Assembly: GCA_902794095.1 (NCBI GenBank)
Contig: CADBFZ010000009.1
Location: forward strand, 21,596-85,595
Length of the DNA: 64,000 bases
Direction: 5' to 3'
Origin: an uncultured Lachnospiraceae bacterium
Lineage (GTDB): Bacteria; Bacillota; Clostridia; Lachnospirales; Lachnospiraceae
Part shown: positions 784-13,463 of the stretch, one piece after another
Numbering within the stretch: the first letter of the stretch is position 1
Layout of the letters: each line of letters begins with the position of its first letter
Notes under the pieces: model-generated
Database searches by the model: none
What the model saw: the letters and a program-made list of their open reading frames with translations, nothing else
What the model was told of the DNA's origin: nothing
Made by a program: the position numbers and the translations under genes

Positions 784-798
784 ATGCGGTAAAATCGG
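784..798. repeat. 15-bp direct repeat, left copy
   Basis: ATGCGGTAAAATCGG here is identical to 8348-8362 in the same orientation. The two copies bracket the island, with about 190 bp (left) and 30 bp (right) between the repeat and the nearest IS30-like end. It may mark a target duplication from an earlier insertion or an attachment core; this is inferred from position only. Confidence 0.6.
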
Positions 799-843
799 GC
801 AAATATCCCTAAGTAATTGCAACACTTAGCGAAAAAAGTTAAA

Positions 844-889
844 AACCGGTTCTGATCTGGCTTTCGGGCCAGCGGAACCGGTTATTTTT
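844..889 (+). terminator. Rho-independent terminator of the polysaccharide gene
   Basis: Long hairpin with outer arms AACCGGTTC and GAACCGGTT (844-852 and 875-883) and an inner CTGGC/GCCAG stem closed by a TTTCG-type loop, followed by ATTTTTA. It ends transcription before the mobile island begins. Confidence 0.85.
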
Positions 890-964
890 ATGCGTATTTA
901 TGCGGTTTTTCGGGGGTGGCTGTTTGGAGGAAAGTACACGAAATAAGACACATTCTAAAATGTG

Positions 965-1010
965 TCAAAGTAAATGCAACACTACCCAGGTGTTGCATTT
1001 AGTTAGTCCC
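965..1010. repeat. Head-to-head IS30-like ends, left edge of island
   Basis: An outward-facing half (AAATGCAACAC, 972-982) and the element's left inverted repeat (GTGTTGCATTT, 990-1000, continuing to 1010) form an 11-bp inverted repeat around the 7-bp spacer TACCCAG. The outer half belongs to the flank and appears to be one side of the pre-insertion site. A separate 8-bp hairpin (GACACATT/AATGTGTC, 947-966) lies just outside. Confidence 0.6.
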
Positions 1011-1013
1011 ATA

Positions 1014-2324
1014 CTATTTTTTAAGTAAATCGGGTGTGAGGATCACATCATCACAAGGTATTTCTGATAATCCAATAAGCTCGAAGAAATCGGTGGGAAG
1101 AGTTGCCTTTGCAATGGCAAAAGGAGTTGCTCCGTACAAGCTATCCCTGGCGAAACTGTTGATATGGCTCATAACGAGGTTGATGTCGCATTGAGAGTAT
1201 GGCTCCAGGGATGTCCCTTTGGGAATGATGTACCGGATATACTTGTGGTTGTTCTCACATGCCCCTTTCTGCTCAGAATGGTTCGGTTCGCAGAAGAATA
1301 TCTTCGTGCGTTTCCCACCGGGAACGATGCAAGAACCTTCCATTCCGTCTATATCCATAAACTCTGTGCCGTTATCGGTCAGTATTACCGGGAAGATCTT
1401 ACTGAAGAGTTCAGCACCGAGAGCAGTTTCAAGTTTGTTGAGGGCTTCAACAACGGAGGCAGATGTGTGCCTGTCGAGGATAAGGGCTATCTGGAAGTGA
1501 GGCTGCGGTAAATGGATCGTAAGGAGGCAGGCTCCCTCGTCTATCTTGCCTATTACTGTATCCATTTGGGCTACGGGTCCGCTGTACGTCTTAATGAACT
1601 CAAGGTAGTCTTCATACCTTCGTCCTATCTTGTTTACAGAGACGATTTCTCTGTTCATTTTTCGGGGCCTTAATCCCTTACGAGGTCTGCGCTTTAACTG
1701 ATTCCGAAGGTTGAATTGGTTAGCTGATAGTTCTCCGCATTCTGTGAGCCTGTAGAGGGTCTTGGCGCATATTCCGAGTTCGGGGTGGTTAATTACTATG
1801 ACGCGAGGGGACTGCCCCTTCTTGAGCAAAGGAGAGGCTATCTCGTCAATCTTTGTGAATTGTTCAAGGGTAAGGTTAAATCCGTTACGTGATTCCGTTC
1901 CGCGTTTAGTTGCAGTTTCATCGGCTTTCTTGGCTCTATAAAACCGTTGAGAAAAAGTACAGCTATAGTTCTTTCTGGGACAAGCATTACAAACCGGGAA
2001 TTTACTCGGACACCTATCCTGGGGAGATGCAAAGTGAGGACAGAGTTTTGTACACTCATACTTTTTACAAGACTTACATTGATTATTGCATCCTTTGTAG
2101 TCACATACTTTCCTTATGTGACATGTCGAATAGAGTCTGCACTTATCAACACATGCTCCACGTCGGATTGTTGAATTTCGGGTGATTTCCCTGGAAATGG
2201 ATGAGGGGCTTACATTCATTTTCTTGGCTATCTGACGAACGGATGTACCTGAATTAAGCCCGGATTCAATCTCTATGCGATCGCTGAGATTGAAATGACA
2301 GTTCTCTCTTTTCTTTTTCTTCAT
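1014..2324 (-). CDS. IS30-family DDE transposase, apparently intact
   Basis: About 436 residues. The N-terminus carries a helix-turn-helix (SVRQIAKKMNVSPSSISREI) typical of IS30 transposases, followed by a cysteine-rich stretch (about residues 55-120) likely to bind zinc. The catalytic core shows all three acidic residues in context: MDTVIG, TDNGTEF and KGACENNHKYIR followed by IPKGTS. The start was placed at ATG 2324 because GGAGGG lies 7 nt upstream; a longer frame begins at 2369 but starts without such a site. It probably moves the surrounding element by cutting the flanking inverted repeats. A 22-bp palindrome lies upstream at 2385-2406. Confidence 0.93.
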   Translation of the reverse strand: MKKKKRENCHFNLSDRIEIESGLNSGTSVRQIAKKMNVSPSSISREITRNSTIRRGACVDKCRLYSTCHIRKVCDYKGCNNQCKSCKKYECTKLCPHFASPQDRCPSKFPVCNACPRKNYSCTFSQRFYRAKKADETATKRGTESRNGFNLTLEQFTKIDEIASPLLKKGQSPRVIVINHPELGICAKTLYRLTECGELSANQFNLRNQLKRRPRKGLRPRKMNREIVSVNKIGRRYEDYLEFIKTYSGPVAQMDTVIGKIDEGACLLTIHLPQPHFQIALILDRHTSASVVEALNKLETALGAELFSKIFPVILTDNGTEFMDIDGMEGSCIVPGGKRTKIFFCEPNHSEQKGACENNHKYIRYIIPKGTSLEPYSQCDINLVMSHINSFARDSLYGATPFAIAKATLPTDFFELIGLSEIPCDDVILTPDLLKK

Positions 2325-2384
2325 TTGACCCTCCACGAATGTAGGGGCCAACAACCTCTCTGTTGTCAAAGAAACGAAATTGAG

Positions 2385-2406
2385 ATATATACTATATAGT
2401 ATATAT
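2385..2406. promoter_or_regulatory. Perfect 22-bp AT-rich palindrome upstream of the transposase
   Basis: The two 11-bp halves (ATATATACTAT and its complement) are exact. It lies about 60 bp upstream of the transposase start and could be an operator or part of its promoter. A chance A/T-rich palindrome is possible. Confidence 0.4.
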
Positions 2407-2425
2407 AATGATTATATAAGTTTCC

Positions 2426-2526
2426 TTGACAAACAAACACTCAAAATGGTAAAGTGTTCGCAGATGAGGATGTAGACCTCAAGGACTTCGCGTAATCTTG
2501 CCGGACGCAGCGGAGTCCTTTTTTTA
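2426..2526 (+). ncRNA. Candidate ~65-nt small RNA or attenuated leader
   Basis: This fills most of the 303-bp gap between transposase and XRE gene. TTGACA (2426-2431), an 18-bp spacer and TAAAGT (2450-2455) form a plausible promoter. The predicted RNA from about 2462 holds a small hairpin (GAGG/CCTC, 2466-2480) and then a terminator hairpin (AAGGACT 2481-2487 with AGTCCTT 2514-2520, inner GCGT/ACGC) running into seven T. No open frame of useful length is inside. It could be a trans-acting or antitoxin RNA, or a prematurely terminated leader of the XRE gene 100 bp downstream. Confidence 0.4.
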
Positions 2527-2627
2527 TGCAGATTTCTATGCCGCTATTTTACCATAAAGCAAACAAACGTTCTATATCGGAATATTAACCAAAGTTTTGT
2601 GCACCACATGCAAATTTTTACAGAAAA

Positions 2628-3203
2628 ATGGCAAAAAAACATCTTACACTTGAAATAATAGGCGGACGAATGAAACGTTCCCGCAAGGCAAAGCACCTAA
2701 CCCAACAGGAGCTTTCTGATATTATCCATATCAATCACGGAACTATCAGCCGATATGAGAGCGGATTGGTAGATATCCCCGCAGCAGCACTTGTGAGCTA
2801 CGGAGAAGGGCTTGATTACGAGCCTAAAAACTATCTTGCTTGGGATGATGTTGGAGCTGAAGATGTCCTGTTCCTACTTGAACAAGCAGCGGTAAAACCG
2901 GAGAAGAAAAAGCGAAAGAAGAAAAAGCCTTTTAATCCGGATGGTTTTACAATCGGTTGGACATCGCAAATGCCGAGCTTTATAGGTGATCTCGATTTTG
3001 AGGATGATGAAATGGACGAGGAATTGGATCTGCCGGATGAAGTAATCGATATAGCTCACTCTTACAAGGTGTTGAGCAAATCTAAATGCGATTACGCGGT
3101 CCTGGAGCCCTTAAGAAATGAGATAATAACCCTCATTGAGACAGAGACGAATATGAGCAAGGAACGCTTAATGAGACGAATAATGGATTATCTGGATGTG
3201 TAA
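2628..3203 (+). CDS. XRE-family transcriptional regulator of the island
   Basis: 191 residues. Residues ~8-60 form a Cro/C1-type helix-turn-helix (RSRKAKHLTQQELSDIIHIN, then TISRYESG). A very basic linker follows (EKKKRKKKK, about residue 90) and then an acidic region of unknown fold. The ribosome site is weak. An internal ATG at 2670 has a better upstream GGCGG but would cut into the first helix, so the longer form is preferred. It stands alone on the plus strand, convergent with the next gene and sharing its terminator. It is the obvious candidate to control the divergent promoters at 3845-3981. Confidence 0.85.
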   Translation: MAKKHLTLEIIGGRMKRSRKAKHLTQQELSDIIHINHGTISRYESGLVDIPAAALVSYGEGLDYEPKNYLAWDDVGAEDVLFLLEQAAVKPEKKKRKKKKPFNPDGFTIGWTSQMPSFIGDLDFEDDEMDEELDLPDEVIDIAHSYKVLSKSKCDYAVLEPLRNEIITLIETETNMSKERLMRRIMDYLDV

Positions 3204-3215
3204 CAAAACACAGAG

Positions 3216-3252
3216 AAAGCACCACGTTCTTTAGAGAATGGGGTGCTTTTTT
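3216..3252. terminator. Shared terminator between convergent genes
   Basis: AAAGCACC (3216-3223) pairs with GGTGCTTT (3242-3249), followed by T's. It terminates the XRE gene and overlaps the stop codon of the convergent minus-strand gene, whose own transcript may also use it. Confidence 0.85.
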
Positions 3253-3844
3253 ACTTTATTTCAAGGTGAGGAAAATAATCTTCAAATAATTCATGTATAT
3301 GAAATACCATGTTTGCAATCCCGTTAATGTAAACAGTTTCATTTTTGCTCAACTTTCCTATTATTTTGTCCTTATTATCTACCGGATATCTTCCCGTTTG
3401 TGATCCTTTTGAGTTGGCACCTAATGAGTTTATCCATTTCACATATCCACTATCTGTTTTGCCTGTAAATTTATATTTTTCTTGTATTATTAAAACAAGA
3501 TCCGAATAATTATGATTTGCTTTTACGTTCTCATCAACAGCAAAAATGAGACTTTTAAGCTTCATTTCTAACGCATGAGAATATAGTCGATAAATGACTC
3601 CAAACATATTGATTTCATAGTCAGGCATTTCGTCAGTTTTTTCATTGTTATGCAAAAATTGATAATAGTCTCGGAAAAGAACATCGCCTGCATGAAGATA
3701 TGTTTCAGCAAAGTATTGAAAATACTCGCTTTTTAATTTGTTATTTACATTGTTTATATCATCACAACGTGGATCTATTGATAATATGTTTAGTGGCGCT
3801 TCGTAATCTATTGGAAAATCCTTTGCAAAATCAAATTTAATCAT
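3251..3844 (-). CDS. Hypothetical protein, possible HEPN-like fold
   Basis: 197 residues, no membrane segment, start supported by AAGGAG 9 nt upstream of ATG 3844. Not firmly recognised. The central part (YSHALEMKLKSLIFAVDE followed by HNYSDLVLIIQEKY and later GRYPVDN) resembles the pattern of HEPN-type helical proteins: a helix with 'HALE..LK', then 'H..L..L', then an 'RYP' turn. Many HEPN proteins are RNases or partners in toxin-antitoxin and defence loci, but the R-x(4-6)-H catalytic motif is not clearly present. It is divergent from the helicase operon and convergent with the XRE gene, so it probably belongs to the same module. Confidence 0.5.
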   Translation of the reverse strand: MIKFDFAKDFPIDYEAPLNILSIDPRCDDINNVNNKLKSEYFQYFAETYLHAGDVLFRDYYQFLHNNEKTDEMPDYEINMFGVIYRLYSHALEMKLKSLIFAVDENVKANHNYSDLVLIIQEKYKFTGKTDSGYVKWINSLGANSKGSQTGRYPVDNKDKIIGKLSKNETVYINGIANMVFHIHELFEDYFPHLEIK

Positions 3845-3925
3845 AAACCTACACTCCTTAAACTAATAGACAGTTATGTTCAGACTTTTATTTAGCATAT
3901 AGCATTTAAAGACATATTTGCAATA

Positions 3926-3975
3926 TTCAATTTTGTTGAAGATTGTTGAATAAAATTGCAAGCGTAAGCTATAAT
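3926..3975 (+). promoter_or_regulatory. Promoter and operator-like repeats of the helicase operon
   Basis: TTGAAT (3946-3951), an 18-bp spacer and TATAAT (3970-3975) form a good sigma-A promoter ending only 6 bp before ATG 3982. TTGTTGAA is repeated at 3933-3940 and 3943-3950, exactly 10 bp apart, and TTCAA (3926-3930) faces them. The repeats overlap the -35 box, as an XRE operator would. Confidence 0.5.
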
Positions 3976-3981
3976 GATCAT

Positions 3982-6819
3982 ATGACCAAACAAGAAGCTT
4001 TCGATGAAATAAACAAGATACAAGATGAGTATGTAGGGGAACTGATAGGTCTCATTCATAGTGCTGACTATGAAATGATGAAGACCATTGACTTTACATC
4101 GGCAACAGGAACCGGAAAGACCAAAATGATGAGTAAGCTCATCAACCTTCTCCCGGATATCTATTTTATTGTCACAACGCTATCCAAGGGCCAACTGCAC
4201 CTACAGGTACGTGATGAACTTGCAAAGGATTGTAAGCAAGATAATTACTATGTATACGGCAGTGCTGATTATAAGATAAACAGTAAGCTCGATGCTGAAG
4301 ATATCATCGGTAGGATTCCGGAGAACACTAAATGTATATGGCTACGTGATGAGGGACATATCAAAACCAACAGATATGATGAACTCTTAAAAAACGTGTG
4401 CTACAAGGTTGTGAACATCTCTGCAACAAACCCTCATAGTGATATTCAGTGTAATTTTACGCAGACTATGATGCTCCGCACGGTCAATCAGACAAGCGGA
4501 ACACCTGCCGATGCCATAAACCGTCTTATTGAGGTCAAGAAGGCTCACAAGAAGGTAAAAGGGTATAATCCGTGTGCTATTTTCAGGTGTATCTCTGGGA
4601 ATGATAAACTCCATAAAGAAATAGTTGCCCTTTGTAAGAAAAACAACCTCAAATACATTGATATCAATGATGATCCGTATGTTATGGCGGAACTTTGCGA
4701 AGATGATAACGAGAATGATGTCATTATCAATAAATTTAAGATAGTTGAGGGTATAGATATCCGTAGAGCCCACGTTCTCTATATGGATAACCAGCCCGAG
4801 AATAATGCAACCACTATCCAGGCAATCGGAAGATGCCGTAGAAACGCTCTATTGTATAGAGATGATATAGATATCCTTTCCCCTAAAAATGCGAAGCTTT
4901 TGGAGCAAACAAGGGAATGCTATGTCTATTACAATGTAAAGAACATGAGGATAGACACTGATCAGGATGGTGAATTACAGTATGCGTTCTGCAATCATAT
5001 TTCTTGTGAAGCTCTGAAGGCAGGGACAACTATTGATGTTGTCAACGGACAGCTTTCTAATGGCTTATACATAATTGAATTAGAAGGACAGACTGGGCGT
5101 TTTAGAATTAATGTAGATGAGAATACAGGTTTTAATATAGTTGATCCTATAACCGATTTTTATAGGACAGAAGAAATTGAATACTATAACCGTGAGAATT
5201 ATATTCATACCTATAGTTGGAAAGTACACGTTAAGAATCTTCATTTTTTCCCAATGACACTTGCAGAAGGCGTTATAGATGATCCTACGGTTAGATGGCC
5301 TGGAAAGAAACATCAGCCCTATTATGATATGGAAAAAGCTGCTCATTGCCATTTTGAATTTGAATGGTTTTGCTCCAAAAGAGGAGTTAAAAATGTTGAT
5401 AGTATCACATTAGATATTAGAGAAGATAAATTTGCTTGCAACTTATCTGCTGTTAAAGAGATATTTGATGAAACAGTGAGCAAATATACATTGGAATATA
5501 TAAAAGCCCATTTAAACGAGAATAATGTGGGTAATGAATATATTAACCTTCCAACCGTAATACTATTCGTTGATTTTGCGTATTTATACTTTATTGACAA
5601 AAACAATGCTCTCAAGTATAGCGATAAAAAGTATGTTGAGTTAGAGAGTACGCGTAAATGCTGTGATTACATAAAAAAACGATTCAAAGAATTTGAAAAG
5701 CTCTTAAAAATGTTGGAAGTTCCAAAAGGAATGACGGATGAATATGCAAAATCAATTTCTCTGAGCATTAATAACCTTATCGAATGCGTAAATAATCGAA
5801 CCATAAAAGATATTCGCTATGATTATGAAAAGTATAATCAATTAGTATCTGACGAAGAAAGGCATCTACTAAACAACGAAATAATCCCTGTATATTATAG
5901 CGGTATATATAAAAAAGGATATTTAACAAAAAAAGATGTAGATGAATTTATAGTTCAGACTGATTATAAAAGAGTTCTAAATGATAGACATAGCGCTTTA
6001 ATCGGTGTGGATTCCATGAGGCAGATACGAGGAGATACAGGCTCATTCTGGACTGAGGCAAAGGCTATAAACTCTAAAATTGGCAGCTATACTAAACTTA
6101 ACAGGTATATTACAAAACAATATTTTGCAGAGCTTGAGTGTGCAAGGCCACAATGTTTCTCTGGTAAGAACGATTTTTCGTTTGATAAGAAATGCAACTC
6201 TATTATTGGCTATTGTGTTGAATACTACTCTAAATATTTATTGTATGGAGCTGATTACTTATACCCATACATTGATAAAGCGTTTAAAGAGGGGCATCGT
6301 TATATTCTCACAAAAGAAATAATAATCCGAGCCTGTATGCTGAAGTATAAGGCTATGATGGCGATGAGCTTCGGTCAAGAAGTTGTCAAAATCATACAAA
6401 CAATATCTGCGGAACAACTCTTGACTGATAAGTATGAAGATTTTGTCAACACGGTCGATGAATTGGGACGACGAACCGCAAATTATGTTAAAGCAACCCT
6501 TTATCCGGATCGAAAACCGGTAAACGATACAGACCCTAACTTGTCTGTATTACATATTGCCGGATTAGCCGACTATATTACGCCTGATACGATCCTGGAT
6601 GTGAAGGTAAGAAACAATATAGATGAGAAATGTGTAAGACAGGTATTAGCATATCACTACTTATCTACAAAAAGGTCTGATCTGAACATCAAAAGAGTTA
6701 TTGTATACGATGCCTCAAGCGACAGAGCTGTAATTGTACCCATTGAACCTGGCAACCAAAAATCATGCAAAGGTAATGTGAAGGATGGCAAGAGCAAAAA
6801 AAGACGGGCAGTTCTTTAA
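3982..6819 (+). CDS. SF2 helicase with C-terminal RecB-like PD-(D/E)XK nuclease domain
   Basis: 945 residues from ATG 3982; a TTG at 3943 would add 13 residues but would lie upstream of the promoter's -10 box. Helicase motifs in order: Walker A ATGTGKT (41-47), DEGH (123-126), SAT (147-149), motif V near IVEGIDI (255-260), motif VI QAIGRCRR (280-287). A long region (~330-850) has no recognised domain. Near the C-terminus GLADYI, ILDVKV (D873, K875) and RQVLAYHYL (Q887, Y891) match the D...(D/E)xK...QxxxY pattern of RecB/Cas4-type nucleases. It is the first gene of a four-gene operon. The fold is established by motifs; a role in phage defence is inferred. A type III restriction Res-like subunit is the nearest alternative, but no Mod partner is present. 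Confidence 0.85.
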   Translation: MTKQEAFDEINKIQDEYVGELIGLIHSADYEMMKTIDFTSATGTGKTKMMSKLINLLPDIYFIVTTLSKGQLHLQVRDELAKDCKQDNYYVYGSADYKINSKLDAEDIIGRIPENTKCIWLRDEGHIKTNRYDELLKNVCYKVVNISATNPHSDIQCNFTQTMMLRTVNQTSGTPADAINRLIEVKKAHKKVKGYNPCAIFRCISGNDKLHKEIVALCKKNNLKYIDINDDPYVMAELCEDDNENDVIINKFKIVEGIDIRRAHVLYMDNQPENNATTIQAIGRCRRNALLYRDDIDILSPKNAKLLEQTRECYVYYNVKNMRIDTDQDGELQYAFCNHISCEALKAGTTIDVVNGQLSNGLYIIELEGQTGRFRINVDENTGFNIVDPITDFYRTEEIEYYNRENYIHTYSWKVHVKNLHFFPMTLAEGVIDDPTVRWPGKKHQPYYDMEKAAHCHFEFEWFCSKRGVKNVDSITLDIREDKFACNLSAVKEIFDETVSKYTLEYIKAHLNENNVGNEYINLPTVILFVDFAYLYFIDKNNALKYSDKKYVELESTRKCCDYIKKRFKEFEKLLKMLEVPKGMTDEYAKSISLSINNLIECVNNRTIKDIRYDYEKYNQLVSDEERHLLNNEIIPVYYSGIYKKGYLTKKDVDEFIVQTDYKRVLNDRHSALIGVDSMRQIRGDTGSFWTEAKAINSKIGSYTKLNRYITKQYFAELECARPQCFSGKNDFSFDKKCNSIIGYCVEYYSKYLLYGADYLYPYIDKAFKEGHRYILTKEIIIRACMLKYKAMMAMSFGQEVVKIIQTISAEQLLTDKYEDFVNTVDELGRRTANYVKATLYPDRKPVNDTDPNLSVLHIAGLADYITPDTILDVKVRNNIDEKCVRQVLAYHYLSTKRSDLNIKRVIVYDASSDRAVIVPIEPGNQKSCKGNVKDGKSKKRRAVL

Positions 6820-6955
6820 CTGCTACATAGAAAAAGAGCTATGGGATAAGCTTAATGCTGAATCTGAGGAGACTAAGATCCCCAAAACTGCTATTGTTGA
6901 GATGGCGCTGAGAGACTATTTCAAGAATAAAAGAATGGTAAAAAACAATAGATAA
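6785..6955 (+). CDS. Small ribbon-helix-helix (CopG/Arc-like) protein
   Basis: 56 residues. The frame overlaps the helicase 3' end by 35 bp, so translation may be coupled. The sequence FFNCYIEKELWDKLNAES, then KIPKTAIVEMALRDYF, follows the RHH pattern: one strand, helix with 'W..L', turn, helix ending 'AL.DYF'. ATG 6785 is the only in-frame start, because a TGA lies two codons upstream. RHH proteins usually bind DNA as dimers and often serve as antitoxins or autoregulators, so it may regulate or restrain the nucleases of this operon. Its small size makes it easy to miss. Confidence 0.7.
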   Translation: MARAKKDGQFFNCYIEKELWDKLNAESEETKIPKTAIVEMALRDYFKNKRMVKNNR

Positions 6956-7001
6956 TAGTAGTACGAAGGTTACTCCAAATGATAAGGATTATGAAATAAA
7001 C

Positions 7002-7466
7002 ATGGCGACACGTATATACAGTGCAAAAGTAACGTATAGATGCGAAGATACTGGGGAAATTGTAACGGGTGATAAATACTTATCTTCAAAACATTGGAAG
7101 CTCTTGAGGCAAAAGGTCTATGACTACTATGGAGGTAAGTGCCAGCGTTGCGGCGATAGTATTCCGCTCAATTTGGCAACTATACACCATAGGATCTATA
7201 AAAGAATGGGAAAAGAAAAAATGACAGACCTTCTTTTATATTGTGATCACTGTCATAAGTGCGTTCATAAGGGCAGAAAAGAGACACATCAATTAAATGG
7301 TAATTTGCAAGCGTTAATATCAAAACTGACAAAAGCTGAAAAACAGGAAGCATTTGATGTTCTCGTAAAACACTTTGGAATTGAAGTTGAGTATGATGAA
7401 GACGGACGCATAGTAAACGACAAGAATAAAACAAATAATAAGAGTAGGGCATCACACAATGGCTAA
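7002..7466 (+). CDS. HNH endonuclease
   Basis: 154 residues. A zinc-binding ββα-metal fold is indicated by C47-x2-C50, the HNH-type pair IHHRIY (H62, H63), C81-x2-C84-H85 and H89. The N-terminal 30 residues and the C-terminal charged helix are not assigned. The ribosome site is poor (AAGGA 13 nt upstream). Its end overlaps the next gene by 8 bp, a sign of co-translation. In this family the enzyme nicks or cuts DNA; here it is probably a second effector of the island's module. Confidence 0.85.
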   Translation: MATRIYSAKVTYRCEDTGEIVTGDKYLSSKHWKLLRQKVYDYYGGKCQRCGDSIPLNLATIHHRIYKRMGKEKMTDLLLYCDHCHKCVHKGRKETHQLNGNLQALISKLTKAEKQEAFDVLVKHFGIEVEYDEDGRIVNDKNKTNNKSRASHNG

Positions 7467-8217
7467 AGGGTATAAGAGAAAAACCTCATATGTCGGGAGT
7501 AGTGAATATTACGGTAGTAAAAACCTGCCTAAAATAATGCAAAAGCCCCAATTAGCTGATTATGGACTCCCTCCAAATGCGGAATACTTGGTCAATACGG
7601 AAAAAGAAAAGATACGTCAGAAATACGCGAAGATCAATAAAAGAAGAACATATATTGTATTAGGAGCATTACTTGTATGTATCGCATTAAGCTATAAATA
7701 CTTAATGGAATGGATAATGTGCTCTGGAGCCGTTATTTTTGTAGTGCTGCTAATTATCGTTGCTGTGGAAAAGAATCCGGAGGCAGTTCCAGTTGAATAC
7801 GAGACGCAGTTAATACAGTACCAAAAGGATTGTAAGGCATATGAATATTGGCTTGGAGTAAAGAAGTTTAATGCGTGGGATTCCTTAGACGGTCACTCGT
7901 TCGAACGGGCAGTTGCAAGGCTATATGAAGGCTTTGGATATTCAACGACAGTTAGTAGAGAGGGTGGCGATGGTGGCATAGATATTATCCTAAAAAAGGA
8001 TAACGATGTTATAGCTGTTCAATGTAAGGCTCACAATAAAGCAGTTGGCCCGGCTGTGGCAAGGGATCTATATGGAACAATGGTGTCTAAAGGATATAAA
8101 CATGGGATGATAGTATCTAAAAATGGTTTTACGAAAGGAGTCCATGAGTTTATAGCCGGTAAAAACATAGAGCTTGTCGATTTACAGCAGTTGATGGAAA
8201 TGCAGGATCATTTATAA
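7459..8217 (+). CDS. Membrane-anchored Mrr-like restriction endonuclease
   Basis: 252 residues. Two membrane helices (about 65-79 and 84-103) are followed by a cytoplasmic Mrr_cat-type PD-(D/E)XK domain: E149 in FERAV, D175 in GGDGGIDIIL, and Q188-C-K190 in AVQCKAH, with a later KHGMIVSKNGFT segment typical of the family. Mrr enzymes cleave modified DNA. Membrane-tethered forms also exist, and anchoring could place the nuclease where phage DNA enters. It overlaps the HNH gene by 8 bp and ends the operon at a strong terminator. No methyltransferase lies nearby, so a classic restriction-modification pair is unlikely. Confidence 0.88.
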   Translation: MAKGYKRKTSYVGSSEYYGSKNLPKIMQKPQLADYGLPPNAEYLVNTEKEKIRQKYAKINKRRTYIVLGALLVCIALSYKYLMEWIMCSGAVIFVVLLIIVAVEKNPEAVPVEYETQLIQYQKDCKAYEYWLGVKKFNAWDSLDGHSFERAVARLYEGFGYSTTVSREGGDGGIDIILKKDNDVIAVQCKAHNKAVGPAVARDLYGTMVSKGYKHGMIVSKNGFTKGVHEFIAGKNIELVDLQQLMEMQDHL

Positions 8218-8229
8218 AGCTTACAGATT

Positions 8230-8264
8230 AAGAGACATTCACTTATAAGGATGTCTCTTTTTTT
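8230..8264 (+). terminator. Terminator of the island operon
   Basis: AAGAGACAT (8230-8238) pairs with ATGTCTCTT (8251-8259), followed by a run of T. It lies between the Mrr gene and the right-hand IS30-like ends. Confidence 0.9.
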
Positions 8265-8272
8265 GTTGAATT

Positions 8273-8340
8273 GGGACTAACTTAATGCAACACTTGGTTT
8301 GGGACTAACTTATTGCAACAGGTGTTGCATTTGCTTAGTC
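8273..8340. repeat. Cluster of three IS30-like ends, right edge of island
   Basis: GGGACTAACTTAATGCAACA (8273-8292) and GGGACTAACTTATTGCAACA (8301-8320) are two tandem right-type ends 28 bp apart. TGTTGCATTTGCTTAGTC (8323-8340) is a left-type end in the opposite orientation, so 8301-8340 is a head-to-head pair separated by 2 bp. That layout resembles the abutted (IR)2 junction known as an IS30 transposition intermediate. Confidence 0.6.
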
Positions 8341-8347
8341 AAATATC

Positions 8348-8362
8348 ATGCGGTAAAATCGG
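8348..8362. repeat. 15-bp direct repeat, right copy
   Basis: Exact match to 784-798 in the same orientation. The bases on either side of the two copies differ, so the identity is confined to these 15 bp. Confidence 0.6.
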
Positions 8363-8451
8363 CATAGTTTTGCTTGTTATTTACTAGTCTATATAGTATT
8401 ATTAAAAAGTATTAATTTTTTATAAATTTCTAGTTTTGCTTGGGGGTAACA

Positions 8452-9558
8452 GTGAAATTCGTCAGGTGGGAAGACCTTAAAAGCGGAATGAGACTCGCTC
8501 GTCCCATTTATTCCAAGAGCGGCGTCCTTCTGTACGAACGTGATGCGAAGCTCACTGCGGCAAGTATCGAATCAGTTAAAAATTTCGGGCTCCTCGGAAT
8601 CTATATCTTAGAGCCTGCAGAACCTCTGCCTCCTATGTCAGAGGAAGATCTTGCTTTTGAAAAGTTCGAGATCAAGACGGTTGCGTCTATTCAGGATGAG
8701 ATCTCGAGAATCCTCAACACTAAAAAACAGCGTAATCTCCCTACAATCGTAAGCCAGATTATCCGTCAGTACGGACATCTGGATGGTAAGGTTCACTTCT
8801 ATCAGAACCTTAGAAGTAAGGATGATTTTGTATGCAGACACATGTTCAATACGGCGATTCTTTGTGCAATGATGGCCAGCCGTATGAATATTCCCATAGA
8901 AGACAGACTCGTGCTCGTTACTGCGGCACTTATACATGATATCGGTAAGATAAGCTCCAATAACCCTGCTGTTTTCGGCGGAGAAACCGATACGAACAGA
9001 TTGGCTGATATGTACGCGGATGCAATGCACGGAACGGAACTGATAGAGGAGTGTTTCTCATCAGACGGAAGTAAGCTCAGAAGAATCTGCCAGCAGGCAC
9101 TCAGAGCCGAGAAGGCTGCAGCACTTGGGGAAGAGCTTGAGACTAAGAAGATGTCTCTGGAAGCTAAGATCCTTCAGGTAGCAAGCCGTTATGACGAGAT
9201 TACCGGAATGAGCCTTACAGGTGAAAGCCTTTCCGAGGTTAAGGCGGTAATGGAGTTCCAGGATAAGGATGAGATCTATGATCCTGCTACTGTTCAGGCA
9301 CTCGTTGACAGCGTATACATTCTTTTCCCCGGAGTCAGCGTACTTCTCAGTTCGGGAGAAAAAGCACTTATCATCAACGAGAATCAGGAGAATATCCTGA
9401 AGCCTACGGTAATTACTTTCCGTCAGAACTCGATAATGGATCTGTCGTTGCATGAATTCTCTGATATCAGAGTAGTCGATATTATGAAGACTCTTGATAA
9501 CAGATACATCATGGATCAGACGGCAATCAATCAGGCAGGTATCAGCGTTCCCGAATAA
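8452..9558 (+). CDS. HD-domain protein, degenerate HD-GYP type
   Basis: About 368 residues from GTG 8452, chosen because GGGGG lies 5 nt upstream; a TTG 12 bp earlier would put that site inside the gene. The N-terminal ~60 residues resemble the small domain preceding many HD-GYP proteins (DLKSGMRLARPIYS). The HD domain retains an upstream His (VCRHMFNTAIL) and HDIGK at ~162-166. The GYP signature is absent, though the later LEAKILQVASRYDEITG segment follows HD-GYP topology. HD-GYP proteins hydrolyse cyclic di-GMP; this one may bind it or be inactive. It is 42 bp upstream of pilT on the same strand, suggesting a link to pilus retraction. The 90 bp upstream are A/T-rich with no clear promoter. 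Confidence 0.75.
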   Translation: MKFVRWEDLKSGMRLARPIYSKSGVLLYERDAKLTAASIESVKNFGLLGIYILEPAEPLPPMSEEDLAFEKFEIKTVASIQDEISRILNTKKQRNLPTIVSQIIRQYGHLDGKVHFYQNLRSKDDFVCRHMFNTAILCAMMASRMNIPIEDRLVLVTAALIHDIGKISSNNPAVFGGETDTNRLADMYADAMHGTELIEECFSSDGSKLRRICQQALRAEKAAALGEELETKKMSLEAKILQVASRYDEITGMSLTGESLSEVKAVMEFQDKDEIYDPATVQALVDSVYILFPGVSVLLSSGEKALIINENQENILKPTVITFRQNSIMDLSLHEFSDIRVVDIMKTLDNRYIMDQTAINQAGISVPE

Positions 9559-9600
9559 GGAGCAAGATATATTAACAAAATTTTTTAGGGGTGAATAGTT

Positions 9601-10656
9601 ATGGTTGACATTTATGATGTGATGCAAAAGGCTAAAAATGCCGGCGCCAGTGACGTTCATATCACTGTTGGTGTCCCTCCCAAGATGAGGGTTAACGGTA
9701 GCCTTCTTACTGTTGAAGGATATGACAGACTCATGCCTCAGGATACTCTTGATGTAGTCATGTCCATTGCTAATGAAGAGCAGAGACGCAGATTCGAGGA
9801 AATCGGTGAATACGATATGTCATTCTCCATTCCCGCTCTCGGACGTTACCGTGTTAACATCTTCAAGCAGAGAGGCTCTGCAGGTCTTGCACTCAGACTT
9901 GTCGGTACTGAGATTCCCAATCCTGAGAAACTCGGTGTTCCCAAGGCTGTTATCGATCTCCACGAGAGAAAGAGAGGACTTATCCTTGTTACCGGTCCTA
10001 CCGGTTCCGGTAAGTCAACAACCCTTGCTTCCATCATCGACAGAATCAACGAGAACCGTGATGCTCATATCATCACTCTCGAGGACCCTATCGAGTATCT
10101 CCATATGCATAAGAGATCTGTTGTTAACCAGCGTGAGATCGGTATGGACTCCGGTTCATATGCAAACGCTCTCCGTGCTGCACTCCGTGAAGATCCCGAT
10201 GTTATTCTCGTCGGTGAGATGAGAGACCTTGAGACTATTTCAACTGCTATTACCGCAGCTGAGACCGGTCACTTGGTCCTTTCCACCTTGCATACCATCG
10301 GTGCTGCATCTACCGTCGACCGTGTTATCGACGTATTCCCTCCTCACCAGCAGCAGCAGATCAGAATTCAGCTTGCAGGCGTTCTCGAAGCAATCATTTC
10401 CCAGCAGCTCATTCCTACTTATGACGGCAAGGGACGTGTTGCTGCATTCGAAGTACTTCTTGCAAACCACGCTATCAGAAACCTTATCCGTGAAGGTAAG
10501 TCACACCAGATCATGGGCGTAATGCAGACCAACAAGGCTATGGGTATGATCACCATGGACGAAGCAATCTGCAACTTCTTCTACGAAGGAAAGATCGACC
10601 GCGATCAGGCGATTCACTTCGCACAGGATCCCGATGCAATGGAAATCAAGATCTGA
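9601..10656 (+). CDS. pilT: PilT-type twitching/retraction ATPase
   Basis: 351 residues, full length for PilT. It shows Walker A GPTGSGKST (132-140), an Asp box with LEDPIEY, the PilT-type segment LREDPDVILVGEMRD containing Walker B, and the His box ETGHLVLSTLHT. PilT hexamers disassemble type IV pili at the inner membrane face. Start supported by AGGGGTG upstream of ATG 9601. No other pilus genes are in the window, so assembly genes must lie elsewhere. It follows the HD protein by 42 bp and ends at a strong terminator. Confidence 0.95.
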   Translation: MVDIYDVMQKAKNAGASDVHITVGVPPKMRVNGSLLTVEGYDRLMPQDTLDVVMSIANEEQRRRFEEIGEYDMSFSIPALGRYRVNIFKQRGSAGLALRLVGTEIPNPEKLGVPKAVIDLHERKRGLILVTGPTGSGKSTTLASIIDRINENRDAHIITLEDPIEYLHMHKRSVVNQREIGMDSGSYANALRAALREDPDVILVGEMRDLETISTAITAAETGHLVLSTLHTIGAASTVDRVIDVFPPHQQQQIRIQLAGVLEAIISQQLIPTYDGKGRVAAFEVLLANHAIRNLIREGKSHQIMGVMQTNKAMGMITMDEAICNFFYEGKIDRDQAIHFAQDPDAMEIKI

Positions 10657-10679
10657 TCACCCCACAACCATATATATTC

Positions 10680-10709
10680 AAAGGCGACGCAAATGCGTCG
10701 CCTTTTTTG
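10680..10709. terminator. Bidirectional terminator between pilT and comM
   Basis: AAAGGCGACGCA (10680-10691) pairs with TGCGTCGCCTTT, followed by T's. The A-rich left arm gives a weaker U tract for the convergent comM transcript, whose stop codon touches the hairpin. Confidence 0.9.
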
Positions 10710-12248
10710 TTATCCCCATTTAAAGTATTCAAGTGTAGGCCTGAATGATGCCGCTTCCAGGATATGTTTGCTTTGTATGTTTTCACTTCCTTCAAGATCT
10801 GCTATAGTCCTGGATACACGCAATATACGGTGATAGGAACGAGCGGAGAGCTGCAACTTTTTGTACATACTCTCAATGAGTTCCGATTCTTTCTTGCCCA
10901 GTACGCATACCTTATCCATATCATCAGCTTTAAGGTCCGAATTAAATCTGTACCTCGTTCCTTTAAAACGTTTATCCTGCATTTCTCTTGCTTTCATGAC
11001 CATCTCAGTCATCTCTGCCGATGAAATACCGCCTTTACCCGCCCTAATCTCGTTTATTTCAATATTCTTTAATTCTGTACACAGATCGATTCTATCGAGT
11101 ATGGGACCGGATATCTTATTCAGATAATGCTTGATCTCGGTGTCGGTACATCTGCATCTTCCTCTGTCGGGATAGTATCCGCAGGGACATGGATTCATGG
11201 CACATACCAAGAGAAAATCGGACGGATAATCAACGGAGTATTTTATTCGTGAAATCTGTATTTTCTTATCTTCAAGAGGCTGTCTCAAACTCTCTATAGT
11301 ATCCCTTCCAAATTCGGGAAGCTCATCCAGGAAGAGTACCGATCTGTGAGCAAGACTTATTATTCCCGGTCTTGGATTTGCACCGCCTCCAACCAGTGCA
11401 TATCTTGAAATGGAATGATGCGGTGATTGGAAAGATCTTGATGTGATAAGAGCTTTACCCTTTGGCATCTGTCCCGCAACGCTGTAAATGGTCGTTAGCT
11501 CAAGACTTTCCGACAATGTAAGCGGTGGAAGTATTCCGGGGATTCTCTTAGCAATCATGGATTTACCCGCACCGGGAGGTCCGGTCATCAACAGTGAGTG
11601 AAATCCTGCAGCGCTGATTATTGCGGCCCTTTTTGCCCTTTCCTGCCCCTTAACCTGATCAAAGTCAGGAATGGTGTCACGACATTCTTCTATAATAGAT
11701 AGGGGATCAGTATAGACTGAAGGGAGATATTGATCGTCACCCGATCCGAGATAATCCATTACCTGTTTAAGATTCTTAGCTCCGCGAACGGTTATTCCGG
11801 GAACTATTGAGCCTTCATTTGCATTATCTGCAGGTACTATGCATTCCTTGATACCGTTTGCTACAGCAGCTTGAACAATGGGCAGTACGCCACGTACGGG
11901 ACGTATTTCACCATCCAGTGACAGCTCACCCACAAACAATATCCCTTCAGTTAATTCTGTAGGTATTAATTCCATGGCAGTCAGCAACCCGATAGTCATA
12001 GGAAGATCGAATGCCGTTCCGTCTTTTTTAAGATCTCCCGGGGATAGATTAACAGTAATCCTCGATGCGGGAAGAGTGATGGAATTATTCTTCAAAGCCG
12101 CTCTGATCCTGTCTTTGGCTTCTTTTACTTCAGGTCCCGGCGAGCCTACGATATTAAACATCGGAAGACCGTTTGACATATCTGTTTCTACGTTAATGAT
12201 CCTTCCCGTAATTCCCTGTAATGTAGCCGATAATATATTACTGAACAT
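10710..12248 (-). CDS. comM: YifB/ComM-family Mg-chelatase-like AAA+ ATPase
   Basis: 512 residues, usual length. The N-terminal ~170 residues form the ChlI-like domain (ISGLPMFNIVG-type start, here MSNGLPMFNIVG; then NLSPGDLKKDG). The AAA+ part shows Walker A TGPPGAGKSMIAKRI, Walker B LFLDELPEF and a zinc-binding insert CPCGYYPDRGRCRC. In transformable bacteria ComM is a helicase that extends branch migration of incoming DNA. It lies 9 bp downstream of dprA on the same strand, a common pairing. Confidence 0.93.
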   Translation of the reverse strand: MFSNILSATLQGITGRIINVETDMSNGLPMFNIVGSPGPEVKEAKDRIRAALKNNSITLPASRITVNLSPGDLKKDGTAFDLPMTIGLLTAMELIPTELTEGILFVGELSLDGEIRPVRGVLPIVQAAVANGIKECIVPADNANEGSIVPGITVRGAKNLKQVMDYLGSGDDQYLPSVYTDPLSIIEECRDTIPDFDQVKGQERAKRAAIISAAGFHSLLMTGPPGAGKSMIAKRIPGILPPLTLSESLELTTIYSVAGQMPKGKALITSRSFQSPHHSISRYALVGGGANPRPGIISLAHRSVLFLDELPEFGRDTIESLRQPLEDKKIQISRIKYSVDYPSDFLLVCAMNPCPCGYYPDRGRCRCTDTEIKHYLNKISGPILDRIDLCTELKNIEINEIRAGKGGISSAEMTEMVMKAREMQDKRFKGTRYRFNSDLKADDMDKVCVLGKKESELIESMYKKLQLSARSYHRILRVSRTIADLEGSENIQSKHILEAASFRPTLEYFKWG

Positions 12249-12257
12249 ATAATCTCC

Positions 12258-13463
12258 TTATTTTCTGCAAAAGCATCCGGGGCTTATCTGTACCGCATAT
12301 CCTTCAAGACACAGCTCCATTAAAATCAGACAGATTCCTGTTTCACCGGGTGATTCTTTTCCTGTTTCTTTCATATGTATATCGATTTCTTCCGCGCTTT
12401 GCGGGAAAAGAGTGAGCTCTCTGTAGATCTCCAAAAGTCTCTCTTCAATATCCGGTTCTTTATCTTTTTTACCTTCGTATTTCCTGTGTCTTTTATCGGA
12501 ACCGGAGTCAAATGCGGGCTTTACAAAATCGGTTTTTGGTCCCGTAAAACCTGCTTCCAAATCTGCCATATGATCCTCCATAAGGTCGCTCATAAATATG
12601 GAAGGAGACAGATAAACTCTGGCTCCGTGACCTATAAGACCGTTACATCCCGCGGACAATTCATCGCCGATTCGTCCCGGGACCGCATAGATATCACGTC
12701 CCTGGTCAAGTGCCATATCAACAGTTATAAGAGTTCCGCTTCTTGCCCTTGCTTCGACTACAACAATCGCATCAGCAAGTCCGCTGACAATGCGGTTTCG
12801 TGGAGGAAAATATCTTGAAACGGCAGGTGTTCCCGGAGGATATGTGGAGATTATTCCACCGTTATCCATAAGCATTTCATACAGATCACTGTTGGATTCG
12901 GGATAGCAGATATCTGCTCCGCAGCCCAAGACACCGTATGATTTTCCGCCTGCATCGATCGCTGCTTTTTGACTTATTCCGTCAATACCGAATGCCATTC
13001 CGCTTATTACGTTTACATCGTTTCTTCCCAGTTCTTCACCCAGTTCCCGTGCGGTTTTTACGCCATAGGGAGAACATTGCCTTGCTCCGATTATGGCAAC
13101 TGATAGCTTATTATTTTCAGGTAATTGTCCGTAGTAAAAGAGACCGATCGGCGGGTCGGGAATGTTTTTTAGTCGTTCGGGATAGTCGTCATCCCATAGG
13201 AAAGAAAGCTTCATGCCGCCCCGCAGAAACTCCTCGTACTTACGGAATATATTGTTTTCTTTTCGATATTTGATCAGTTCTTTAACCTGCTTAGAACCTG
13301 ATCTTTTAATAAGTTCTTCATCCGATGCTTCGAATGCTTCTTTGGCAGAATCGAATGCGTTCAGGATCTTGGGAATCGGTCCCTGTCCGATCCAGGGTAT
13401 CGAAACAAGCCAGAATAAATAAGGTCTGTCGTTAGTATCCAAACCTGTCCTTTCTGCCGCCAA
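12258..13463 (-). CDS. dprA: DNA processing protein A
   Basis: About 401 residues. The Rossmann-like DprA core is clear: VAIIGARQCSPYG, VISGMAFGIDGISQKAA, GVLGCGADICYP, FPPRNRIVSGLADAIVVVEA and SGTLITVDMALDQGRDIYAVPG. DprA binds single-stranded DNA taken up during transformation and loads RecA. An N-terminal HhH/SAM-like region and a C-terminal winged helix are suggested by length. The TTG start at 13463 has no good ribosome site and is uncertain. It is transcribed with comM, away from ispG. Confidence 0.93.
   Translation of the reverse strand: MAAERTGLDTNDRPYLFWLVSIPWIGQGPIPKILNAFDSAKEAFEASDEELIKRSGSKQVKELIKYRKENNIFRKYEEFLRGGMKLSFLWDDDYPERLKNIPDPPIGLFYYGQLPENNKLSVAIIGARQCSPYGVKTARELGEELGRNDVNVISGMAFGIDGISQKAAIDAGGKSYGVLGCGADICYPESNSDLYEMLMDNGGIISTYPPGTPAVSRYFPPRNRIVSGLADAIVVVEARARSGTLITVDMALDQGRDIYAVPGRIGDELSAGCNGLIGHGARVYLSPSIFMSDLMEDHMADLEAGFTGPKTDFVKPAFDSGSDKRHRKYEGKKDKEPDIEERLLEIYRELTLFPQSAEEIDIHMKETGKESPGETGICLILMELCLEGYAVQISPGCFCRK

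Follow-up and report, generated by a model that had tools for sequence, protein, structure and literature searches.

A helicase-nuclease, HNH and membrane Mrr operon as the probable cargo of an IS30-type unit transposon with an exchangeable cargo slot

Results

The stretch of DNA analyzed here (the window: 64,000 nucleotides of contig CADBFZ010000009.1, from an uncultured Lachnospiraceae bacterium) holds four packed genes at 3982..8217 that an earlier note, made from the sequence alone, had put forward as an undescribed defence operon. They encode a helicase-nuclease, a ribbon-helix-helix (RHH) protein, an HNH nuclease, and a membrane-anchored Mrr-type nuclease. We find that the operon lies inside a 7,549-bp unit (799-8347), and it is probably the cargo of an IS30-type unit transposon that has an exchangeable slot for toxin- or defence-like genes and is often inserted facing a host promoter. 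The transposon, with the group to which it belongs, is a better-supported finding than the four-gene operon as one system.

Borders and empty site of the transposon

The earlier note had placed the genes on a mobile element, and this is borne out by borders, a target duplication, and an empty site; the transposon ends and the duplication are additions to what it described. A 15-bp word at 784..798 is repeated exactly, in direct orientation, at 8348..8362. In the congener G796, the flanks directly adjoin each other, and their overlap is exactly this word, present there as a single copy with one mismatch. The left end (799..1013) contains an outer repeat (809-827, minus strand), a hairpin near 845-884 (recognized by eye), and two further repeats (966-984, minus; 990-1012, plus). 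The right end (8272..8347) contains three repeats (8273-8292, minus; 8301-8320, minus; 8322-8344, plus), and a repeat search pairs 26-nucleotide inverted arms at 986-1011 and 8272-8297 with 92% identity. Next to the left end lies a gene on the minus strand (1014..2369) for a 451-residue IS30-type transposase with an N-terminal HTH_38 domain (PF13936, E 2.2e-13), relatives of which on plasmids are annotated as IS30 family transposases. The borders, duplications, and empty site together suggest that this enzyme transposes the unit by acting on these ends.

A composite transposon flanked by two insertion sequence (IS) copies was also considered. It is rejected given the single transposase match in the genome (E <= 1e-10) and the distribution of the end motif: with up to three mismatches allowed, the 2.3-Mb assembly (rated 80% complete) contains three instances, all of them at this element.

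Two more genes precede the operon. The first, on the plus strand (2628..3203), encodes the XRE-type regulator that the earlier note had named (PF01381, E 1.8e-7). The second is convergent to it (3251..3844, minus strand) and encodes a 197-residue protein for which searches of Pfam, NCBIfam, PADLOC, PHROGs, plasmids, and viral_contigs gave no significant relative. The earlier note had guessed that this was a HEPN protein, an identity for which none of the libraries searched gives support. The 197-residue protein gene and the operon have a GC content of 30-39%, against 43-47% in the transposase, the XRE gene, and the flanking genes.

Related elements share the ends and differ in cargo

Transposase searches, counting the source genome, covered 358 genomes of the family (43 with matches at E <= 1e-60), 31 of the genus (8 at E <= 1e-40), and 295 of the order (4 at E <= 1e-130). 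Seven close relatives were chosen by score (G816, G792, G875, G190, G080, G206, and G962), and together with the window copy their transposases form one clade (support 99/98) in a tree of 33 rows. Exact direct repeats of 13-15 bp border six of the eight clade members, at 13-14 bp in the five other than the window copy. These five lie in different genomes and are 3,649 bp (G816), 3,973 bp (G792), 3,589 bp (G190), 3,732 bp (G875), and 3,439 bp (G080) long; their transposases are about 46-54% identical, they have the same end layout, and they carry different cargo. The opposed repeats beside the transposase stop codon are common to the relatives, the inner one being degenerate in G875, and the three-repeat order of the right end is kept in G190, G816, and G792 and, by eye and with degenerate copies, in G080 and G875. 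A second insertion site can be compared across genomes: the flanks of the G792 element are 98 bp apart in G800, versus 4,084 bp, although the exact word at the junction differs in G800. No viral contig was found in a search with the right-end pattern; ten viral loci that matched the transposase at 24-44% served as controls only.

The cargo of the G792 element consists of an XRE gene and adjacent genes for ShosA (E 3.8e-49) and ShosT (E 2.3e-17), which are the DprA-like and phosphoribosyltransferase partners of the ShosTA pair, both with partial model coverage. G190 carries an XRE gene, a DUF3990 protein (E 7.1e-14; PADLOC candidate PDC-M13, E 5.4e-12), and a 70-residue open reading frame (ORF). 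G080 has an XRE gene and an ADP-ribosyltransferase-like protein (ADPrib_exo_Tox, E 2.8e-21). The G875 element has an XRE gene, a 63-residue ORF, and, overlapping that ORF by 4 bp, a gene for a 198-residue protein that looks GNAT-like by eye (Pfam E 0.12). G816 carries a protein matching PF04754 (putative transposase, YhgA-like; E 2e-9), and no XRE gene was found in its element. YhgA/Rpn proteins are PD-(D/E)XK nucleases. XRE genes are thus present in four of the five, and the cargo of two of the five matches PADLOC models. All five cargo kinds are familiar from toxin-antitoxin or defence settings. By this guilt by association, which is association and not proof, the window cargo would also serve in defence, and we think it reasonably likely to be a module of defence or toxin type, of a restriction-like kind.

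For comparison, 46 loci with this kind of transposase were collected, 8 in the clade and 38 outside it. Nineteen of the 38 have an exact repeat of at least 12 bp, from which L062, L078, and L080 were dropped (their repeats looked like chance or unrelated duplications), leaving 16 controls. These are cargo-less elements of 1.6-1.9 kb with duplications of 13-16 bp and, in one, 29 bp; they make up 16 of the 25 nonclade tree rows, and the absence of cargo applies to these 16, the rows with resolved ends. The comparison bears on a quite different role for the window genes, in which the helicase, RHH, and HNH proteins would serve the transposon itself, in replication, excision, or target choice, rather than defence. 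Their location inside the element fits such a role, and a helicase with an RHH protein resembles plasmid maintenance sets in general. However, inspection by eye of the listed ORFs of the five other bordered elements revealed no helicase, RHH, or HNH gene, and the cargo-less relatives have their duplications all the same, so we regard this explanation as very improbable.

Two observations on the controls and their kin may be recorded. The 29-bp direct repeat, against 13-16 bp in the other controls, borders L087 (1191 and 2953). In L058 (6329-9323), on the Butyrivibrio fibrisolvens plasmid pNP243, two IS30-type transposase genes in opposite orientation are neighbours, and the second, which is cargo-less, has a 14-bp duplication and ends with repeats like those described here.

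The four genes of the operon

The linkage described in the earlier note and the catalytic residues that it named all check out. The four genes lie on the plus strand with, in order, a 35-bp overlap, a 46-bp gap, and an 8-bp overlap. The set of three nuclease types with a helicase and a small DNA-binding protein is confirmed by Pfam for the RHH, HNH, and Mrr proteins and supported by motifs and mostly weak matches for the helicase and its putative nuclease tail. The first gene (3982..6819) encodes 945 residues from an ATG, or 958 from an alternative TTG at 3943, and its product is a superfamily 2 (SF2) helicase similar to the Res subunit of type III restriction-modification (R-M) systems. Helicase motifs were recognized by eye (GTGKT at 43-47, DEGH at 123-126, SAT at 147-149, and QAIGRCRRN at 280-288), and the Pfam matches are below cut-off (ResIII, E 0.0055; Helicase_C, E 0.0099). 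The protein aligns with a type III-like Res of G190 over residues 31-109 and, as a second piece, over residues 106-292 (best E 4e-9), so that the Res-type SF2 core is present by both alignment and motifs. In the C-terminal tail, the motif order GLADYI, ILDVKV (holding D873/K875), and RQVLAYHYL, with its Q..Y, is what we take to be the RecB/Cas4 order. With a sole weak PADLOC match for the tail (PDC-S61, E 0.0038), these motifs point to a PD-(D/E)XK nuclease.

The second gene (6785..6955) encodes a 56-residue RHH protein (PF12651, RHH_3; E 5.2e-7, above cut-off), and the third (7002..7466) encodes a 154-residue HNH nuclease with H62/H63 (PF01844, 26.5 bits against a cut-off of 21.4; phrog_8060, E 3.6e-12). 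The fourth gene (7459..8217) encodes a 252-residue protein, here TM-Mrr, that has the Mrr_cat domain of Mrr-type (type IV) enzymes (PF04471, E 1e-27, above cut-off) with active-site residues D175/Q188/K190. Its hydropathy exceeds 1.6 in 19-residue windows starting at residues 64-66 and 80-94.

As the earlier note had stated, no methyltransferase is present among the genes between the transposon ends (1014-8217) as far as the ORF list and Pfam can recognize one, and hence no Mod stands beside the Res-like gene in the manner of type III R-M. Nor do the four genes match any named defence system in Pfam, NCBIfam, PADLOC, or PHROGs, which agrees with the earlier note. No component model of PADLOC-DB 2.0.0 has a full-length match in the element; matches are at the domain level, with PDC-S02, ZorD, and mREase_IV for the Mrr part and RmrA and HTH_VI for the XRE part, and PDC-S61, DrmA, and DpdF match weakly. 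Among open-access titles and abstract openings, a scope outside which most subscription papers lie, we found no description of this operon or element group.

Relatives of the operon genes were sought in 397 family, 398 phylum, and 31 genus genomes (overlapping draws). In the family set, the helicase matched itself and the type III-like Res of G190 only; in the phylum and genus sets, it matched itself only; and in plasmids, phages, viral_contigs, and genome_contigs, it had no match at the sensitivities used. The Res of G190 (L003), which lies beside a Mod-like gene (names by eye), is thus the only sequence relative found for it. G190 therefore carries both a type III-like R-M pair, identified by eye, and the DUF3990 element. 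The Mrr catalytic domain is common, occurring in 37 of the 397 family genomes (own genome included), and HNH relatives are present in phages and plasmids. Only one of 102 matching plasmid records holds a relative covering at least 80% of TM-Mrr (Butyrivibrio pCY186, L005 11932-12786, 42.5% identity), with a highly conserved catalytic half; its neighbours are a RelB/YoeB-type pair on one side and a type I R-M system on the other. No helicase/RHH/HNH set is annotated in the 24.8 kb of pCY186 around it. A genome_contigs scan with poorly chosen patterns gave, among the matches listed, one Methanosarcina locus with 28% to the Mrr domain, which is a weak negative.

The overlaps and close spacing on one strand suggest that the four genes share one transcript. 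That they form one system is nonetheless a tentative proposal, to which we give somewhat less than an even chance. The earlier note had let its claim depend on the four genes occurring together elsewhere, and we found no second copy of the full operon across the genome, plasmid, phage, and viral searches, so on the note's own terms the single-system claim is unproven. The designation of an undescribed defence operon accordingly stands as regards the lack of a named match, the mobile element, and the defence- or toxin-type cargo of related elements, and falls short as regards recurrence of the four-gene set. A competing explanation, which we hold to be just as possible as a single system, is that the four genes do not make up a single machine: TM-Mrr would be a stand-alone type IV-like restriction enzyme, and the helicase-RHH and HNH genes would be separate occupants of the same cargo slot. 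The pCY186 context of the sole full-length Mrr relative speaks for this, as do the phage and plasmid relatives of the HNH protein and the presence, among the PADLOC models nearest the Mrr part, of PDC-S02, a label that we take to denote a single-gene candidate. Against it, the gene spacing suggests one transcript, and one Mrr example says nothing of what the others need.

Landing sites next to promoters and tRNA genes

Among the six resolved elements, four (four of eight if G206 and G962 count as misses) have a co-directed tRNA gene beyond their right end. Measured from the right duplication, the tRNA genes start at 54, 73, 83, and 113 bp; by type, two are for Ser, one is for Pro, and one is for Gly (Rfam agrees). 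G816 and G792, although closely related, lie before different tRNA genes. In the 16 cargo-less relatives, no tRNA gene is nearby (at least 1.3 kb beyond the duplication, examined to 1.5 kb), and the pooled, partly overlapping loci hold 7 tRNA genes in 440 kb, the four hits included.

A promoter-like hexamer pair follows the right duplication at 11 bp in the window, 11 or 17 in G816, 12 in G792, 21 in G190, 12 in G875, and 13 in G080, with scores of 9, 7, 11, 11, 12, and 9 out of 12, respectively. In the window, it reads TTGTTA, 17 bp, TATTAT (8374..8402, plus strand), ahead of the gene at 8440, and a similar sequence is found at the empty site in G796. The score sum of five elements (window, G816, G792, G190, and G875) was unreached in 100,000 draws from 20,000 AT-matched positions and in 400,000 draws from 21,666 intergenic positions; three of the five score at least 11 (P ~5e-6). 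A promoter preference of insertion is likely from these flanks, and as several cargo-less relatives also precede promoter-like sequences, it may belong to the wider transposase group beyond the cargo clade.

By their position, the insertions appear to be directed to promoters or tRNA genes. The proximity could instead be passive, other insertions having been lost and the survivors lying in AT-rich intergenic gaps; the elements do have AT-rich flanks, two of the six are away from tRNA genes, and promoter-like sequences follow some cargo-less relatives as well. We consider this unlikely, since the five scores lie above both the AT-matched and the intergenic backgrounds, all four tRNA genes are co-directed and past the right end, and the cargo-less relatives have no tRNA gene nearby.

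Directly downstream of the window element are an HD-GYP-like gene, a PilT-like ATPase gene, and then ComM-like and DprA-like genes (8440-13463), so that the insertion site adjoins competence-type genes (all labels by eye).

Discussion

Several observations weigh against our explanation, that of an IS30-type unit transposon with an exchangeable toxin- or defence-like slot and insertion facing promoters. Six resolved elements are a small sample, in which G816 and G792 are closely related to each other. G206 combines end-like repeats with an XRE-like ORF (by eye), but no border duplication was found and no tRNA gene shown; G962 starts at a contig end, with XRE-like and GNAT-like ORFs (by eye) preceding end-like repeats, and being cut, it likewise shows neither. 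Neither the window copy nor G080 has an adjacent tRNA gene, in three of the five other elements (G080, G816, and G875) the cargo matches no PADLOC model, and the full operon is seen once. As to promoters, the measure was picked after the flanks were seen, the score at G816 is weak, and left-end scores in the six run from 6 to 10 (10 in G080). Compared with the 16 cargo-less relatives, the difference is modest: a one-sided rank test gives P 0.017, which becomes 0.042 when scanning includes the first 5 bp, several of these relatives having promoter-like flanks themselves (L073, 11; L120, 11; L074, 10). In the cargo-less L122, on a viral contig, a perfect TTGACA-17-TATAAT lies 2 bp past the 16-bp duplication (11626-11690, with the transposase on the minus strand).

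In the mechanism that we propose, the transposase would act on the multi-repeat ends and mobilize everything between 799 and 8347, duplicating 13-15 bp of target and inserting between genes. The cargo end would often face a host promoter, that of a tRNA gene in four of the six resolved copies, and the host gene, left intact, would make a low-cost landing site. Yeast Ty1 and Ty3 are a eukaryotic parallel for targeting upstream of tRNA genes. The XRE protein probably represses the transposase, the cargo, or both, and the slot appears exchangeable, with toxin-like or anti-phage-like genes in the copies seen. If the four window genes act jointly against phages, the helicase-nuclease would load on invading DNA and degrade it, the HNH and membrane Mrr nucleases would add nicks or cuts, the latter perhaps at the site of DNA entry, and the RHH protein would autoregulate. 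Because no methyltransferase was recognized, self DNA would have to be spared in some other way, either with DNA modification, ends, or structure as the feature recognized or by tight repression.

Taken at its widest, the proposal is of an IS30-type lineage specialized in exchangeable defence and toxin cassettes and in targeting the promoter regions upstream of tRNA genes, with a restriction module in the window copy that joins helicase-nuclease, RHH, HNH, and membrane Mrr proteins in a way not described before. In this full form it is tentative, and we would place it slightly on the doubtful side. The element is a concrete vehicle with exact borders for moving small defence- or toxin-like modules among related gut-type Clostridia (the kind of host is judged from relatives), and its borders can be used as a search tool, anything between such ends being a candidate defence gene. 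If true, insertion near tRNA genes or promoters by a transposase that does not belong to the known ISLre2/TnGBS group would allow direct tests of how the target is recognized, be it through RNA polymerase, a sigma factor, or AT-rich DNA.

Comparison with known systems

The helicase core of the window operon matches a type III-like Res beside a Mod-like gene (names by eye) and differs from type III Res in that no Mod methyltransferase was recognized with it and its nuclease tail looks different. TM-Mrr resembles Mrr-type enzymes in its catalytic domain and active-site residues and differs in its N-terminal hydrophobic segments, no other N-terminal domain having been found. With the IS30 family, the elements share terminal inverted repeats and the HTH_38 domain of the transposase, plasmid relatives of which are annotated to that family. 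Target duplications of IS30 are 2-3 bp long. Those of the present elements are 13-15 bp, their ends are multi-repeat, and with cargo they span 3.4-7.5 kb; because of the long duplications, we use the label IS30-type and do not call them standard IS30 members. The abutting opposed repeats at their ends nevertheless resemble the junctions between inverted repeats described for IS30 intermediates (PMC9333248). The cargo of Tn7-like transposons includes defence systems, according to the description available (PMC8649781); here, in contrast, there is a single IS30-type transposase gene and small cargo, with no Tn7-type proteins recognized. By description only, transporter IS (tIS), which hold an additional ORF within their ends, and IS1202, part of whose family has 16-28-bp duplications, are alike in their passenger genes and long duplications but unlike in that their extra ORFs are described as lacking known function, without mention of a regulator-plus-toxin pattern (PMC10132070). 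The nearest precedent for the landing sites is TnGBS with ISLre2/ISKra4. TnGBS and ISLre2 are described as inserting in a fixed orientation, 15-17 bp upstream of the -35 box of sigma-A promoters (PMC3942029); those transposases are Mutator-like by annotation, and in the IS30-type group the distance is 11-21 bp and four of the six targets are tRNA genes.

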